From NCBI RefSeq assembly GCF_029850875.1, contig NZ_JAOVAM010000001.1, forward strand, positions 310,001 to 374,000: a stretch of DNA of 64,000 nucleotides, written 5' to 3'. A program made the translations under genes and the position numbers. How positions within the stretch are numbered: position 1 is the first letter of the stretch; each line of letters opens with the position of its first letter. The notes under the pieces are model-generated. The model did no database searches. It was given only the letters and a program-made list of their open reading frames with translations, and was not told the origin of the DNA. Of the stretch, positions 56,712 to 64,000 are shown in pieces. The DNA is from Rothia similimucilaginosa. Lineage in GTDB: Bacteria; Actinomycetota; Actinomycetes; Actinomycetales; Micrococcaceae.

Positions 56712-58256
56712 TTATGCCTTGGGCGCTTCGTAGCGGGGGAACACCGGTGCGGGTGCGGGCAGTTCCGTGCCGGGCACGAGCGCGGTACCGATGGCTGCGA
56801 ACTGGCGTGCGTCGCCTTCGGGTACGCCGAGCAGGGTCAGCAGCTTGGCGGTTGCGTCGGGCATGACGGGCTGCAGCAGCAGGGCGACCTTGCGTACGAC
56901 TTCGAGGGTTACGTACAGTACGGTGTTCATGCGGTCGAGTTCGCCGTTCTTGCGCAAGGTCCAGGGTTCCTGCTCTGCGAAGTAGGCGTTGGTGTCTGCG
57001 AGCACAGTCCAGATGCGTTCCAAAGCGCGGTGGAATGCCTGCTCGTCGAAGTCTGCACGGACCGGCTCGTAGAGGGCTGCCGCCTCGTCGAGGATCTTGC
57101 GGTCGGCTTCGGTGAATTCGCCGTGGGTGGGCACCGCTCCGCCGCAGTTCTTGGCGACCATGGACAGGGAACGCTGGGCGAGGTTGCCGAGGTTGTTTGC
57201 CAGGTCGGAGTTGATGCGGTTGATGATGGACTCTTCGGAGTAGGAGCCATCCTGGCCGAAGGATACCTCGCGCATGAGGAAGAAACGTACGGCGTCCAGG
57301 CCGAATGCGTCGACGAGGTTTGCGGGGTCGACGACGTTGCCGACGGACTTGGACATCTTTTCGCCGTTCACGAGCAGGAAGCCGTGGCCGAAGACGCGCT
57401 TGGGTAGCTCCAGGCCGGCAGACCACAGGAATGCAGGCCAGTAGATGGAGTGGAATCGGGTGATGTCCTTACCGATGAGGTGCAGGTCGGCCGGCCAGTA
57501 CTTGGTGAACAGTTCGTTGTCGGTATCGGGGTAGCCGAGGCCGGTGAGGTAGTTGGTGAGGGCGTCAACCCACACGTACATGACGTGCTTGTCGTTGCCG
57601 GGTACGGGTACGCCCCAGTCGAAGGTGGTGCGGGAGATGGACAGGTCGTTGAGGCCGCCCTTGACGAAGGAGATCAGCTCGTTACGGCGCGATTCGGGGT
57701 AGACGTAGCCTTCGTTAGCGTAGAGTTCAAGGAGCTTGTCACCGTACTTGGAGAGGCGGAAGAAGTAGGACTCTTCTTCGGTCCATTCGACTTCGGTGCC
57801 GGTGGTGATGGCGTAGCGCTGGCCGTCGCGCACTTCAGTTTCATCTTCTGCGTAGTAGGCTTCGTCGCGTACGGAGTACCAGCCGGCGTACTTGTCAAGG
57901 TAGATGTCGCCGTTTTCTTCCATGCGCTTCCAGATGGCCTGGGATGCGGTGTAGTGGTCGGGGTCGGTGGTGCGGATGAAGCGGTCATAGCTAATGTTCA
58001 ACGCATCGTTCATTGCTTTGAAGCGTGCGGAGTTCTCGTCGGCAAGTTCCTTAGCGGTCTTACCGAGCTTCTCTGCGGTGGTCTGCATCTTCTGGCCGTG
58101 CTCGTCGGTGCCGGTCATGAAGCGCACGTCGAAGCCGTCGAGGCGCTTGAAGCGGGCTAGCACGTCGGCTGCGATGGTTTCGTAGGCGTGGCCGATGTGC
58201 GGGTTGCCATTAGGGTAGGAGATGGCGGTGGTGATGTAGAACGGAGTTGCAGTCAT
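56712..58256 (-). CDS. metG: methionyl-tRNA synthetase, short form
   Basis: This class I synthetase charges tRNA-Met. The 514 residues contain the HIGH-type [16 protein letters not shown] near residue 20 and [14 protein letters not shown] near residue 299. The zinc-finger cysteines of the MetG1 form are absent, and the C-terminal EMAP/tRNA-binding domain is missing, as in mycobacterial MetG. The ATG at 58256 has only a weak GAAAG close upstream. It lies downstream of tRNA-Lys in the same direction. Confidence 0.95.
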
Positions 58257-58326
58257 AACTTTCAGTTTACCGCAGTCTTAGGCTAGGCTCTCACCCTGGT
58301 TATGTATAGTCTGAAATGCGACGGCC

Positions 58327-58533
58327 CAAACACCAAGCCGCCAAGCAACAGACCAAACCGTGACAACCCTCCCCACCCGGTTCGCTAGGCACGGGGTGCA
58401 CACGAAACTACCGTGCACCCCAACAAACCGGCGGGATAACGCGCCCCTGCCCAACCTGCAGAAACCACCTGAGGAATCGGTGTCGTCCGTAGTGACATCA
58501 GGGTGTCCGAGCTCTGCGAGGACAGGTCCCCCT
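58327..58533. repeat. first copy of the tRNA-Lys-associated intergenic repeat
   Basis: Blocks shared with 63591-63859 include CAAGCCGCCA, ACCAAACCG/ACTAAACCA-type strings, GCTAGGCACGGGG, and a 38-base exact match at 58494-58531 that contains a TGTCC/GGACA hairpin. A second hairpin with GGGGTGCAC/GTGCACCCC arms, 58393-58420, is unique to this copy. No gene is called here. Confidence 0.65.
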
Positions 58534-58553
58534 GTAGGAACAAGGAGAACGCA

Positions 58554-58589
58554 AAAATCCCGCCAATTCCGAAGAATCAGCGGGATTTT
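58554..58589 (-). terminator. terminator after tRNA-Lys, first copy
   Basis: AAAATCCCGC pairs with GCGGGATTTT over a 16-base loop. The same hairpin, with one change, is at 63923-63958. Confidence 0.85.
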
Positions 58590-58597
58590 CTTTGATG

Positions 58598-58670
58598 TGC
58601 GCCCCCTGGGACTCGAACCCAGAACCCATTGATTAAGAGTCAATTGCTCTGCCAATTGAGCTAGAGGCGC
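58598..58670 (-). tRNA. tRNA-Lys (anticodon CUU), first copy
   Basis: The minus strand begins GCGCCTCTAGCTCAATTGG. The anticodon loop CTCTTAA lies in a TTGA/TCAA stem, and the T-arm contains GGGTTCGAGTCCC. CCA is not encoded. Confidence 0.95.
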
Positions 58671-58799
58671 TTATTTATTTTTCAAGGTCTCCCTTGCAAC
58701 GATTAAATACTATACGGCATTTTATGAATGCCTGCAACTCAATTAATAATGAACTGCATCACACATTTGCCAGGTGGTGCTTTTCAGCTTGAAATAGCA
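58671..58799. other. gap between tRNA-Lys and the ilvC terminator
   Basis: It contains the tRNA-Lys promoter for the minus strand. No gene is seen. Confidence 0.35.
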
Positions 58800-58858
58800 A
58801 AGAATCCGGCGCTCCACCCCTCCTCTATGTGGGGCGAGAGGTGAAACGCCGGATTCTT
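58800..58858 (-). terminator. terminator after ilvC
   Basis: The 12-bp arms AAGAATCCGGCG and CGCCGGATTCTT enclose an inner ACCCC/GGGGC-type stem. Confidence 0.8.
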
Positions 58859-58882
58859 AGAAAGCTATTGCTGAGCTACCGT

Positions 58883-60195
<1,313 letters not shown>

Positions 60196-60696
60196 CTAGA
60201 TACGTTCGCTCATGGCGCGCGGGCCGCGTGCCAGGGCGATGGTGCCTGCGCGAACAATTTCGCGAACACCATAGGGTTCCAGAACGTCCAGCAGTGCGTT
60301 GAGCTTCTCCGCAGAACCGGTTGCCTCGATCACAACAGACTCGGGGGAAACGTCAATCACAGATGCACGGAACAGGTCTGCCGCCTGGACGATCTGCAGA
60401 CGTGCCACTGCATCCGCCTTAACCTTAATCAGGATGTGGCCGCGCTGGGTGGAGGATTCGGCGGGAAGCTCGACAACCTTCAGCACGTGAACGAGCTTGT
60501 TCAGCTGCTTGGTAATCTGCTCGATGGTATGGGCGTCACCCTCGGTCACGACGGTGATACGGGAAACACCGGGGTTTTCGGTGGGGCCCACAGCCAGGGA
60601 GAGGATGTTGAACAGACGGCGGGAGAACAGACCGGAGACGCGGGTGAGAACGCCCGGCTTATCTTCTACCAGAACGGACAGAGTGTGCAGAGCCAT
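60196..60696 (-). CDS. ilvN: acetolactate synthase small (regulatory) subunit
   Basis: This 166-residue ACT-domain subunit confers valine feedback on the large subunit. HTLSVLVEDKPGVLTRVSGLFSRR opens the ACT domain (quoted in part), NILSLAVG follows, and a second ACT-like region covers about residues 80-160. The ATG overlaps the ilvB stop by one base (TAATG), so it is coupled. Confidence 0.95.
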   Translation of the reverse strand: MALHTLSVLVEDKPGVLTRVSGLFSRRLFNILSLAVGPTENPGVSRITVVTEGDAHTIEQITKQLNKLVHVLKVVELPAESSTQRGHILIKVKADAVARLQIVQAADLFRASVIDVSPESVVIEATGSAEKLNALLDVLEPYGVREIVRAGTIALARGPRAMSERI

Positions 60697-62498
60697 TAGT
60701 TCTCTCCCTCACGATCGAACTCGGGCGAAGTGTTCTTCGCAATCCAAATCTTGTCATTAGATACGCCTGCCGGGACCATGGGCCAGACGAGGGCGTGGGG
60801 GCTGACAGTGAAGTCAATGACGACAGGGCGGTCGTTGATTTCCAGGGCAGCCTTAATGGTGGCATCCACATCCTCGTCGCGCTCGCAACGGAAAGTTGCA
60901 CAGCCATATGCTTCACCAAGCTTGACGAAGTCGGGGATACGTACGGTGCCGTGACCGTCCTTCAGGTCGGTGTTGGAATAGCGCTCGTTGTAGAACAGAG
61001 TCTGCCACTGACGCACCATACCGAGGGAGGAGTTGTTGATGATGGCAACCTTCACGGGAATGTTGTTATGTGCGCAAGTGACCAGTTCCTGGTTGGTCAT
61101 CTGGAAGCAACCGTCACCGTCAATAATCCACACGGTGGATTCGGGGTGCGCAACCTTAGCACCCATACCTGCAGGAACGCCGTAGCCCATGGTGCCCAGA
61201 CCAGCGGAGCTAATGAAGTGGCGGGGGTTCTCCTGCTGAATGTAGTGTGCACCCCACATCTGGTGCTGACCAACGCCGGTGACGTAGTATGCGTCAGGAC
61301 CGGTCAGAGCGCTAATACGCTCGAGGACGTATTCGGGCGAGCCGAGACCGTCGGTGGGCTTCTGGTAGCCGAGCGGGTAATCCTTGCGGATAACATTCAG
61401 CTCGTTCCACCACTCGGTGAGGTTCGGCAGCTGGTCTGCGAATTCGGTGGAGAGCAGGTCGGTCAGCTCAGGCAGGACATACTTGAGGTCGCCGACAATC
61501 GGAACATCCGCGAAGCGAATCTTCGAGATTTCTGCCGGGTCAACGTCAATGTGGATGACCTTAGCCTCGGGAGCGAAAGAGTCAAGCTTACCGGTAACGC
61601 GGTCATCGAAGCGTGCACCGAGGGTAATCAGCAGGTCAGACTTCTGCATTGCTGCGACGGCGGGGACGGTACCGTGCATACCGGGCATACCGAGATTCTG
61701 GGGGTCCGAGTCGGGGAACACGCCAATAGCGTTCAGGGTAGTGACGACGGGTGCACCGATGAGCTTAGCCAGCTTGTGGAACTCTTCGGAAGCACCTGCA
61801 CGGACCAGGCCACCGCCAACGTAGAAGACGGGGTGCTTGGACTCGGTAATGTACTTTGCGGCTTCGTGGATCTGCTTGGAGTGGCCGCGAGTGACGGGGG
61901 TGTAGCCGCGCAATTCGAGGTCCTCAGGAATACCGCGGTATTCCATCATGCCAACCTGTGCATCCTTGGTGACGTCCACGAGCACGGGGCCGGGGCGGCC
62001 GGTAGATGCGATATGGAATGCTGCTGCGAGCGCACGGGGGATGTCTTGCGGGTCGGTAATCATGAAGGAGTGCTTGGAGATGGGCATTGCCATGCCGACA
62101 ATGTCAGCTTCCTGGAATGCGTCGGAGCCAAGCAACGCGGTGGACACCTGGCCGGTGATTGCGACCAGCGGGATGGAGTCCATGTTTGCGTCGGCGATTG
62201 CGGTCAGCAGGTTGGTTGCACCGGGGCCGGAGGTTGCGATGCACACGCCGGTCTTGCCGCTGGACACCGCGTAGCCCTGAGCTGCGTGGCCTGCACCCTG
62301 CTCATGGCGGACCAGGATGTGGCGAACCTTCTTAGAGTCATACAGTGGGTCATAGGTCGGCAGAATAGCTCCACCAGGCAGGCCGAATACGTCAGTCACA
62401 CCCAAATCTTCGAGGGTGCGGACGATTGCCTGAGAACCGGTCATGCGTTCTGCGGGAGCGTTTACCGCGTCATCAGAAGTGGAAAATCCCATGGTCAT
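60696..62498 (-). CDS. ilvB: acetolactate synthase large (catalytic) subunit
   Basis: This ThDP- and FAD-dependent enzyme makes acetolactate and acetohydroxybutyrate. The 600 residues show [16 protein letters not shown] near residue 39, the catalytic Glu in [14 protein letters not shown] near residue 65, and the ThDP motif [16 protein letters not shown] near residue 457 followed by [13 protein letters not shown]. The ATG at 62498 has GAGGC upstream. A leader peptide and terminator lie 100-210 bases upstream and should control entry into ilvB-ilvN. Confidence 0.96.
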
Positions 62499-62597
62499 GG
62501 AAATGCCTCGTGTCTTAATGGTTCTTCGTTATATTCAATGTTCTGCAGGAGGATTGTGTGGTCCTCACGCATCCTATGCCCGGGGGTACCAAGCTAT

Positions 62598-62637
62598 AAA
62601 AAATGCCCCTCGCTGTTGGTGGTAGCGGTAGGGGCGC
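62598..62637 (-). terminator. attenuator terminator in the ilvB leader
   Basis: On the minus strand GCCCCTACCGCT folds with AGCGAGGGGC and is followed by ATTTTTTAT, a clear intrinsic terminator about 100 bases before the ilvB ATG. Confidence 0.88.
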
Positions 62638-62655
62638 TCAGTCGCAGTGAATAGA

Positions 62656-62665
62656 CCCTGCCACT
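62656..62665 (-). promoter_or_regulatory. candidate antiterminator segment of the ilvB leader
   Basis: The minus strand reads AGTGGCAGGG, which can pair at 9 of 10 positions (one G-U) with the 5' arm of the terminator. It starts four bases after the leader peptide stop, where a ribosome finishing the peptide would cover it. Confidence 0.6.
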
Positions 62666-62669
62666 CGCC

Positions 62670-62708
62670 CTAGGAGACGAATACAAGGTTGATAATTCGC
62701 TGGTGCAT
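62670..62708 (-). CDS. ilvB leader peptide MHQRIINLVFVS
   Basis: This 12-codon ORF has five branched-chain codons (Ile, Ile, Leu, Val, Val) near its end and a TAG stop. GAAGGG lies about 10 bases before its ATG. Position, codon content and the terminator downstream fit classic transcription attenuation. When charged Ile/Leu/Val tRNA is short, the ribosome stalls and the antiterminator at 62656-62665 can form. The peptide itself has no other role. Short leader peptides of this type are known for ilvBNC in corynebacteria. Confidence 0.8.
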   Translation of the reverse strand: MHQRIINLVFVS

Positions 62709-62807
62709 TGCTGTCTTCACCCTTCCATGATGAAGCCCTGGGCGGGGGTGAGTCAAATCTCTATGGGGTATCGTGGCGGTTTCTGCACGGAAACCCCCAA
62801 GTCAACC

Positions 62808-62860
62808 TTCTTCTTTCATGATGTGGACACTTTCTTCTTCTTTCATGATGTGGACACTTT
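62808..62860. repeat. 27-bp tandem repeat upstream of the ilvB leader
   Basis: Two copies beginning TTCTTCTTTCATGATGTGG lie at 62808-62834 and 62835-62860. They are between the divergent ilvB leader and the orphan gene at 62989 and could be a double regulator site. Confidence 0.7.
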
Positions 62861-62952
62861 GCGTGTGTACGTGGATTTTAGCGCAGGTTTTTGAACAGGT
62901 GAGAAAAACTCGCTTTTTTGGATGTCATGGCGCGTAATATGTGCGAATACTC

Positions 62953-62981
62953 GTGACCTTCTTCCTTTGCCCCGGTAGACT
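62953..62981 (+). promoter_or_regulatory. promoter of the 179-residue orphan gene
   Basis: GTGACC (62953-62958), 17 bases, TAGACT (62976-62981), then seven bases to ATG 62989. The geometry fits a leaderless transcript. Confidence 0.5.
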
Positions 62982-62988
62982 GATTTCT

Positions 62989-63528
62989 ATGACCGAACCG
63001 ATTATCACGGTCGCTGATGAGCTGACCGAAGCAAGTAAGTACGCAGAGGTTATCGACCCCCGTAACTCTATTGAGAGTAGCGAGTTTTTGACGGGCGAGG
63101 AACTCATTCGGGTTCTGCACCCGGTTTTTGACGAGCAGATTATTAACTACGGTGCATACAATTTGGTGTATGCATCTGGCCGCGCGGTGTACCGTAATCC
63201 TGATTTGGCGTTGCATCAGCATCCTGATCAGGAGCATTTTATTGTGGGGTATCAGGATGCGCCTGATGAGGTGATTATTGCTCCGGTGAATTTGCCGGCG
63301 TTGACGCCTGCGGGTACTGCTACGACGATTGATAATACGAATGCGCTGCATGCGTATCGTGTGGGTGACGATGCGGTGACAATCGAGTCGGTGAATGGTA
63401 GCTCATTCTTCTTGTCTTTTGAGGATAATGCTGAGCTTTCGACTCGCTTTGGCACTGGACTTTTGGAGCAGGGTCGCGATGTTGAGGATTTCCGTGAGTT
63501 TGTGACGCGGATTTGGCCGGTCCTGTAG
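62989..63528 (+). CDS. conserved-looking cytosolic protein of unknown function (179 aa)
   Basis: The protein begins MTEPIITVADELTEASKYAE. It has no signal, membrane segment or recognised motif, and is acidic with mixed alpha/beta composition. Segments such as GEELIRVLHPVFDEQIINYG and EHFIVGYQDAPDEVIIAPVN look well structured. I start at 62989 because a promoter places transcription start there. An upstream in-frame ATG at 62941 would overlap that promoter. A terminator follows at 63545. I do not recognise the family. Confidence 0.6.
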   Translation: MTEPIITVADELTEASKYAEVIDPRNSIESSEFLTGEELIRVLHPVFDEQIINYGAYNLVYASGRAVYRNPDLALHQHPDQEHFIVGYQDAPDEVIIAPVNLPALTPAGTATTIDNTNALHAYRVGDDAVTIESVNGSSFFLSFEDNAELSTRFGTGLLEQGRDVEDFREFVTRIWPVL

Positions 63529-63544
63529 TCAAGACTTTTCGTAT

Positions 63545-63586
63545 GGAAAGCCCACCGCACCCCTCTGGGTTTGCGGCGGGCTTTCC
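63545..63586 (+). terminator. terminator after the orphan gene
   Basis: GGAAAGCCC.CCGC pairs with GCGG.GGGCTTTCC across one mismatch and is followed by TATA. Confidence 0.8.
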
Positions 63587-63590
63587 TATA

Positions 63591-63859
63591 CCCAAACGCC
63601 AAGCCGCCAGGCAGCACACTAAACCACGACAGCCTTCCCCCGCCCCGCATGCAAAACTCCCAACCGCCACGCAACACGCCAAACCGCGACAGCCCTCCCC
63701 CTCCCAAGTTTGCTAGGCACGGGGCGCACATGGTGAACCACCGCGTACCTGCCGCAACCCCGGCGGGACCGAGCGTACCTCAAATACCGATACACGCGGA
63801 GGTGCATATATCCTCTGTCGCGACATCAGGGTGTCCGAGCTCTGCGAGGACAGGTCCCC
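63591..63859. repeat. second copy of the tRNA-Lys-associated intergenic repeat
   Basis: Related to 58327-58533. Here the front part is present as two tandem degenerate sub-copies (about 63592-63655 and 63656-63727). The 38-base exact block is at 63822-63859. It lies inside a larger hairpin with 11-bp arms GAGGTGCATAT (63799-63809) and ATATGCACCTC (63879-63889). Confidence 0.65.
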
Positions 63860-63922
63860 TGCAGGAGCAAAGAAGATAATATGCACCTCAAGCCATGAAG
63901 ACTGTATTTCAAGGGGAACGCA

Positions 63923-63958
63923 AAAATCCCGCCGATTCCGAAGAATCAGCGGGATTTT
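63923..63958 (-). terminator. terminator after tRNA-Lys, second copy
   Basis: AAAATCCCGC/GCGGGATTTT, the same hairpin as at 58554-58589 with one base change in the loop. Confidence 0.85.
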
Positions 63959-63966
63959 CTTTGATG

Positions 63967-64000
63967 TGCGCCCCCTGGGACTCGAACCCAGAACCCATTG
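63967..64000 (-). tRNA. tRNA-Lys (CUU), second copy, 5' half beyond the window
   Basis: The last 34 bases of the window equal the 3' part of tRNA-Lys at 58598-58631, including the T-arm and acceptor strand. The anticodon lies outside, so Lys(CUU) is by identity with the first copy. Confidence 0.85.

Follow-up and report, generated by a model that had tools for sequence, protein, structure and literature searches.

In the portions of the published reports cited here, control of ilvB by a short leader ORF is described for several actinobacteria. In Corynebacterium glutamicum, the transcription start of ilvBNC and the start codon of the leader are one nucleotide apart, and three hairpins are drawn, an antiantiterminator, an antiterminator and a terminator (PMC11857589); an ilvB-II motif is given for Corynebacterium in PMC10272879. 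The IlvL leader that precedes ilvBHC in Streptomyces lividans is reported to be leaderless (PMC8079986). For ilvB1NC of Mycobacterium tuberculosis, LVVI are the regulatory codons of an upstream ORF, a ribosome at the stop codon masks the antiterminator, and a terminated transcript of about 120 nt has been mapped (PMC13236596). An ilvB leader with a terminator was predicted in Corynebacterium, Mycobacterium and Streptomyces by Seliverstov 2005, whose authors considered it unclear how exactly the genes are regulated (PMC1262725).

The locus considered here lies near one end of a 64,000-nucleotide stretch of Rothia similimucilaginosa DNA, referred to as the window. The original prediction placed an attenuator ahead of ilvBN, and its outline is borne out: an Ile/Leu/Val leader ORF, a stop codon, a U-tailed terminator and then ilvB(N) are present in that order (Table 1), and conservation across genus and family supports attenuation at this place. 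The strand from 62708 to 62598 has a minimum free energy of -37.9 kcal/mol, as compared with a shuffle mean of -28.7 (z -2.7), and none of 200 shuffles folds as low. Three features of an attenuator are found together: a short ORF rich in Ile, Leu and Val (codons 9, 10, 12, 13 and 15 of MKTAMHQRIINLVFVS, 5 of 16 residues), an intrinsic terminator before the first structural gene, and an antiterminator that shares an arm of that terminator. We conclude that the switch is real, conserved and ordinary in kind, with a corrected start and a corrected pairing. The reading that we favour, with a probability of about 0.84, is ribosome-mediated attenuation of ilvBNC transcription, with a leader ORF that is leaderless.

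Table 1. Features of the ilvB leader and the downstream genes; positions are those of the window.
Feature	Positions	Strand	Sequence or product	Remarks
Predicted -35 element	62751..62756	-	TTGACT	TTGAC 36 nt upstream of GTG 62720; 35-37 nt are the predominant offsets in genus and family
Predicted -10 element	62727..62732	-	CATCAT	Weak (A at position 2, T at position 6; 18 nt spacer)
Leader ORF, GTG start	62670..62720	-	MKTAMHQRIINLVFVS	GTG 62720, also the predicted transcription start; stop TAG 62672-62670
Leader ORF, short form	ATG 62708 to TAG 62672-62670	-	MHQRIINLVFVS	
Segment 1	62675..62689	-	Last leader codons	Partner of segment 2 in ribosome-free RNA (1:2 hairpin); folding
Segment 2	62655..62670	-	GGGCGAGTGGCAGGGT	First base is the G of the TAG stop codon; folding, swap test, alignment
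Antiterminator hairpin	62632..62670	-	GGGCG(62670-62666):CGCCC(62636-62632) plus AGU:ACU and inner pairs	-19.3 kcal/mol
Intrinsic terminator hairpin (segments 3:4)	62605..62635	-	GCCCCTACCGCT-ACCACCAAC-AGCGAGGGGC	
Terminator U tract	62598..62603	-	TTTTTT	Preceded by A
ilvB	60696..62498	-	Acetolactate synthase large subunit	NF005860, 1013 bits, cut-off 881
ilvN	60196..60696	-	Acetolactate synthase small subunit	NF008864
ilvC	58883..59911	-	Ketol-acid reductoisomerase	NF004017

The leader stands out within the window by the combination of its parts. There are 118 TTGAC boxes in the 64 kb, seven of which have a short ORF with an Ile/Leu/Val run 34-38 nt away, and one of those seven, the ilvB leader, is also followed by a terminator. 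A simple promoter scan was uninformative on its own (one found, 0.9 expected), and a simple terminator scan did not list the hairpin at 62635-62605, whose 9-base loop is outside the scanned range of 3-8. Structure in the 5' leader of an amino-acid operon could also point to a ligand-binding riboswitch or a T-box. Against this, a search of 62550-62800 returned no Rfam family, T-box and ppGpp riboswitch included, even at E up to 10, and none of the six Rfam hits within 58000-64000 falls at the leader site; the conserved element is an ORF; and in-line probing in Corynebacterium is described as showing no ppGpp response (in the part of PMC10272879 cited here). We regard an element of this type before ilvB as so improbable that it hardly needs to be considered.

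Several other features were seen around the locus. Directly upstream of the leader promoter, at 62807-62860, there are two tandem copies of a perfect 27-bp unit, of which the sisters L083 and L084 have one copy (by eye). A 195-residue ORF on the plus strand (62941-63528), divergent from the ilv operon, has no NCBIfam match at E 0.001. The minus-strand ORF at 63713-64000, open at the right edge of the window, begins with the peptide QWVLGSSPRGRTSKKIPLILRN, which is also encoded by the 3' part of the tRNA-Lys at 58597-58670 and its downstream flank (ORF 58278-58655, minus strand); the shared peptide suggests that the tRNA, together with a stretch downstream of it, recurs as a second copy at the window edge.

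Relatives of the locus were taken from three sets. IlvB was found in all 35 genomes searched of the genus, among which G015, G014 and G013 carry the close sisters of the window locus. A family search found IlvB in 157 of 158 genomes, 10 of them from the window's genus; upstream DNA was collected for 60 of the 147 from other genera, a sample hand-picked, not random, across 28 of the 30 other genus labels. The third set consists of 80 named loci (L001-L080), three of which (L010, L021 and L028) have less than 500 nt of upstream DNA.

The distance between the promoter and the start of the leader is fixed. TTGAC is found 34-38 nt ahead of an ORF with an Ile/Leu/Val run in 33/35 genus genomes, 55/60 of the family sample and 37/80 named loci. 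Offsets of 35, 36 and 37 nt occur 3, 19 and 11 times in the genus, 22, 25 and 7 times in the family and 8, 23 and 5 times among the named loci, while every other TTGAC-to-start distance between 15 and 70 nt has at most 8 counts; these counts accept GTG, TTG and ATG, allow one ORF to contribute more than one start, include near-identical genomes and a few peptides that are not leader-like by eye (e.g. L165), and have the other distances, not shuffles, as their only reference. Upstream of the start, the family sample (55 sequences) has A at -11 in 82% and T at -7 in 80%; among the 33 genus sequences neither of these reaches 60%, and T at -8 is found in 61%. TTGAC is absent from the expected place in two of the 35 genus genomes, L115 and L116. 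The former has TTGAT instead (by eye) and no good U tract, and the latter has leader and terminator without TTGAC. Among the named loci, 43/80 are without a TTGAC-anchored ORF of this kind; about 32 of these 43 are presumably Microbacteriaceae, judging by titles and taxonomy, and in these the switch may have been lost or changed.

Measured against this distance, the start codon of the original prediction is displaced. The leader ATG follows TTGAC by 35-37 nt in most relatives, but the spacing is 47-48 nt for the window and the three sisters and 50 nt for G001. Four codons upstream of ATG 62708 there is an in-frame GTG (GTG AAG ACA GCA ATG) at the expected distance, with the last T of CATCAT 7 nt before it. 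The codon at the TTGAC anchor is likewise GTG throughout the window's clade (four genomes) and in G006, G001 and G033; G006, whose IlvB is 84% identical to that of the window, has GTG in the equivalent leader frame and, by eye, no internal ATG. Since GTG 62720 fits the 34-38 nt distance and ATG 62708 does not, a leaderless start at 62720 is predicted. From the TTGAC offsets, the GTG at the anchor and the -10-like CATCAT, we infer that the RNA has its 5' end at its own start codon and encodes the 16-residue MKTAMHQRIINLVFVS. The 12-residue ORF MHQRIINLVFVS of the original prediction does exist, and its ATG is kept in G015, G014 and G013, but the leader most likely starts at GTG 62720.

The pairing also requires revision. 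The antiterminator was first drawn between AGTGGCAGGG, which starts four bases past the leader stop, and CCCTACCGCT, and 9/10 of these bases do pair. In the window this register is worth -11.1 kcal/mol alone and -16.8 with all extra pairs, as compared with -19.3 for a hairpin that overlaps the stop codon; in the sister G013 the corresponding values are -7.3 (-11.8 with extra pairs) and -21.1. In more distant relatives the part found is not the AGTGGCAGGG:CCCTACCGCT register; counterparts of the stop-overlapping hairpin are seen in G006 (-17.2), G001 (-20.0), G033 (-11.7), G034 (-15.7) and G003 (-15.3 kcal/mol), and in G027, where GGGCG:CGCCC is replaced by GGGUG:CACCC (-13.1). The antiterminator register thus probably starts inside the UAG stop codon and not at AGTGGCAGGG; its CGCCC at 62636-62632 has four bases in common with the terminator stem. 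Attenuation exactly as first drawn would have a 5' untranslated region, a 12-residue peptide from ATG 62708 and an antiterminator lying entirely past the stop codon. Both the ATG and the 9/10 pairing are there to be seen, but with the ATG off the 35-37 nt promoter distance and the GTG on it, and with six further genomes pairing at the stop codon, we think this version unlikely.

Evidence for the antiterminator that we prefer, the one overlapping the stop codon, comes from comparison between genomes. When arms were exchanged among 18 genomes chosen to represent the 32 that have a terminator, matched duplexes had a mean of -13.75 as compared with -11.41 (sd 0.53) for permuted ones, and 1/20,000 permutations was as good, a figure that is not a clean probability because the sequences are related. 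It thus seems that segment 2 and the terminator arm changed in step within the genus. Taken one by one, sequences often have a better partner than their matched arm (those of the window rank 4/18 and 12/18), and no good antiterminator pairing was found in G002 and G029 in this analysis. Watson-Crick runs of at least 7 occur in 14/32 genus genomes. In the window taken alone, the pairing does not go beyond chance: 60/100 spacer shuffles pair the terminator arm at least as well, and its longest Watson-Crick run (GGGCG, 5 bases) is equalled by 43/100. As judged by these comparisons, then, the support for the putative antiterminator is comparative.

An alignment of nine close sequences gives a mixed picture. 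In helix 2-8:46-52, 82.5% of cells are paired as compared with 25-65% in slid versions, with 5/500 shuffles as high; there is one double change only, and the covariation score is 0.056 as against 0.079-0.099 for versions slid by +1 to +3. The terminator helix has 94.4% of cells paired, which is not above column shuffles (93/500 as high). The expectation that the leader would be conserved in relatives is well founded for the ORF, which is at a fixed place in 33/35 genus genomes, but covariation among the nine close sequences is thin.

The terminator itself is widely kept: among genomes with an anchored leader, one of -8 kcal/mol or lower is found within 170 nt of the leader stop in 32/33 of the genus and 47/55 of the family. 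In L105 (G032, an incomplete genome, 87%) the leader frame continues past the usual stop and no terminator is found under the -8 kcal/mol and 170 nt rule, owing either to decay or to a faulty assembly. The stretch that pairs with the terminator arm varies. Elsewhere in the genus it is formed by the last leader codons (GUGCGCA:UGCGCAC) or by a mid-leader stretch (GGGUCGCGCGG and its partner). In the rest of the family, 34/47 genomes have a complementary run of at least 7 bases between the leader end and the stretch before the terminator, and in 28/47 at most 5/100 shuffles have a run as long. A Watson-Crick run of at least 7 that does not overlap the terminator stem is found in 27/47, and in 19/47 the run stops precisely at the first base of the stem; five g5 loci (among L117-L122) whose runs overlap the stem are counted in the 47. 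The non-overlapping runs (L126-L176, other genera) join the last leader codons GCGCGUG, in some cases GCGCAUG or GCGCCUG, to exact complements adjoining the terminator, with L126, L128 and L149 among the few of the 27 that use another leader stretch. We tentatively suggest, as a possibility that we would not yet back, that in the window's clade the antiterminator opens with the leader's stop codon, and a ribosome arriving at UAG would thereby be the off signal; that across the genus the antiterminator element has varied in place (stop, last codons, mid-leader) while always being coverable late in translation; and that in other genera of the family a GCGCGUG-type helix abuts the terminator instead of taking one of its arms.

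Folding of the window RNA supplies a further element. In the minimum-energy structure, 62670-62655 is paired with the final codons of the leader (62689-62675), which gives segments 1:2, 2:3 and 3:4; the original prediction had missed the competing 1:2 hairpin. The effect of a ribosome was modelled by folding only the ribosome-free RNA of a transcript ending before segment 4. With the ribosome absent, P12 was 0.89 and P23 0.03 (0.02-0.03; 0.10 by an alternative arm definition). With the A site at ATT, ATC, CTT or GTA (codons 9, 10, 12 and 13 from GTG; 5, 6, 8 and 9 from ATG), P23 rose to 0.64, 0.66, 0.73 and 0.72, and at the Val codon GTC (codon 15) it was 0.53. Stalls at the non-control codons CGA (Arg 8) and AAC (Asn 11) gave 0.63 and 0.73; such a model can indicate where a ribosome stands, not why. 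With the ribosome at the stop, the remaining fold had -5.8 kcal/mol, yet P23 was 0.50, and 0.67 with half of segment 4. The anticipated difference between folding states is seen in the model between stalled and ribosome-free RNA, but pairing at the stop is still 0.44-0.50, and in the full-length transcript the terminator was favoured in every ribosome state (P34 0.87-0.98). The switch must therefore be kinetic, decided during RNA synthesis.

The same model was run on those 32 of the 35 genus genomes that have both a terminator and an anchored leader. Upstream pairing of the terminator arm had means of 0.52 for Ile/Leu/Val stalls, 0.18 at the stop and 0.15 with no ribosome; it was higher in the stall than at the stop in 31/32 (the exception being G029) and higher than with no ribosome in 28/32. 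The window itself gave 0.59 for the stall and 0.44 for the stop in this run, with 60/100 shuffles as good. Shuffled spacers had a mean of 0.44 as against 0.70 at the best stall codon, a codon chosen after the fact. Pairing with no ribosome was below 0.3 in 26/32 genomes and high in G006 (0.69) and G013 (0.58); as the arm is already captured there, a 'default off' state is not general.

We propose the following mechanism. Transcription would begin at GTG 62720 or no more than one or two bases from it, and a ribosome would load straight onto the 5' end and translate MKTAMHQRIINLVFVS. When charged Ile, Leu and Val tRNAs are ample, it would reach UAG and cover segment 2, whereupon the 3:4 terminator would form and transcription would end some 100 nt ahead of ilvB. 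A shortage of Ile or Leu tRNA (codons 9, 10 and 12) would make the ribosome wait upstream, covering segment 1 and leaving segment 2 free to capture the 5' arm of the terminator (GGGCG:CGCCC), so that RNA polymerase would read on. A stall at Val 13 acts likewise in the model, and one at Val 15 less so. With no ribosome, 1:2 would form and then the terminator (default off).

A constitutive terminator before ilvB, behind a leader that is translated but non-regulatory and with ilv control residing elsewhere (a repressor, ppGpp, growth rate), would accord with the strong terminator in each simulated full-length state and with leader-codon changes in Streptomyces coelicolor reported to be without effect (as cited in PMC1262725). 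Under it, however, neither the Ile/Leu/Val leaders at their fixed place nor the joint change of segment 2 and the terminator arm would have any reason to persist, and in C. glutamicum Val-to-Ala changes are described as abolishing valine-dependent control (PMC11857589, in the part cited). We judge this alternative very unlikely. Attenuation remains our reading of the locus, and we infer from the arrangement described above that translation of the leader and stalling within it regulate ilvB.

Leaderless ilvB attenuators are already known, and the window locus adds an example to that kind. Among the matches listed by literature searches by genus name (titles and abstract starts, with incomplete coverage), there was no title on ilv attenuation in Rothia or Kocuria, and none for Arthrobacter. 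Besides correcting the pairing and the likely start codon, the analysis predicts the 5' end to the exact base (62720), and it suggests that leaderless Ile/Leu/Val leaders precede ilvB in 55 of the 60 genomes sampled from the other genera of an actinobacterial family. The leaders of this family form a natural series for how attenuators alter their pairing yet keep their logic.

By analogy, the proposed ilvB mechanism matches the published actinobacterial systems, as far as these are set out in the portions cited. The set of Seliverstov 2005 shares the leader and the terminator before ilvB, and its Results do not name the window's genus or family. With respect to the Corynebacterium ilvB-II motif, no Rfam match was found at the leader site, and Rfam 15 may not include ilvB-II. 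The leader of S. lividans IlvL (MRTRILVLGKRVG) resembles that of the window in having a leaderless ORF (predicted in the window), Ile/Leu/Val codons, hairpins and a U-rich region; the KRVG with which it ends is similar to the terminal KRVA of many other leaders of the family, not to the end of the window's leader. M. tuberculosis ilvB1NC, likened here by its description, has an upstream ORF with regulatory codons and a ribosome positioned at the stop that masks the antiterminator, which in the window is a model. C. glutamicum IlvL (MTIIRLVVVTARRLP; ilvB-II motif) likewise has a short leader rich in Ile, Leu and Val, a near-leaderless start and three hairpins before ilvB. The window locus differs from it in its peptide, its GTG start and a segment 2 that begins in the stop codon; the C. 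glutamicum leader has been tested by mutation, and the window locus is a prediction of the same kind of switch.
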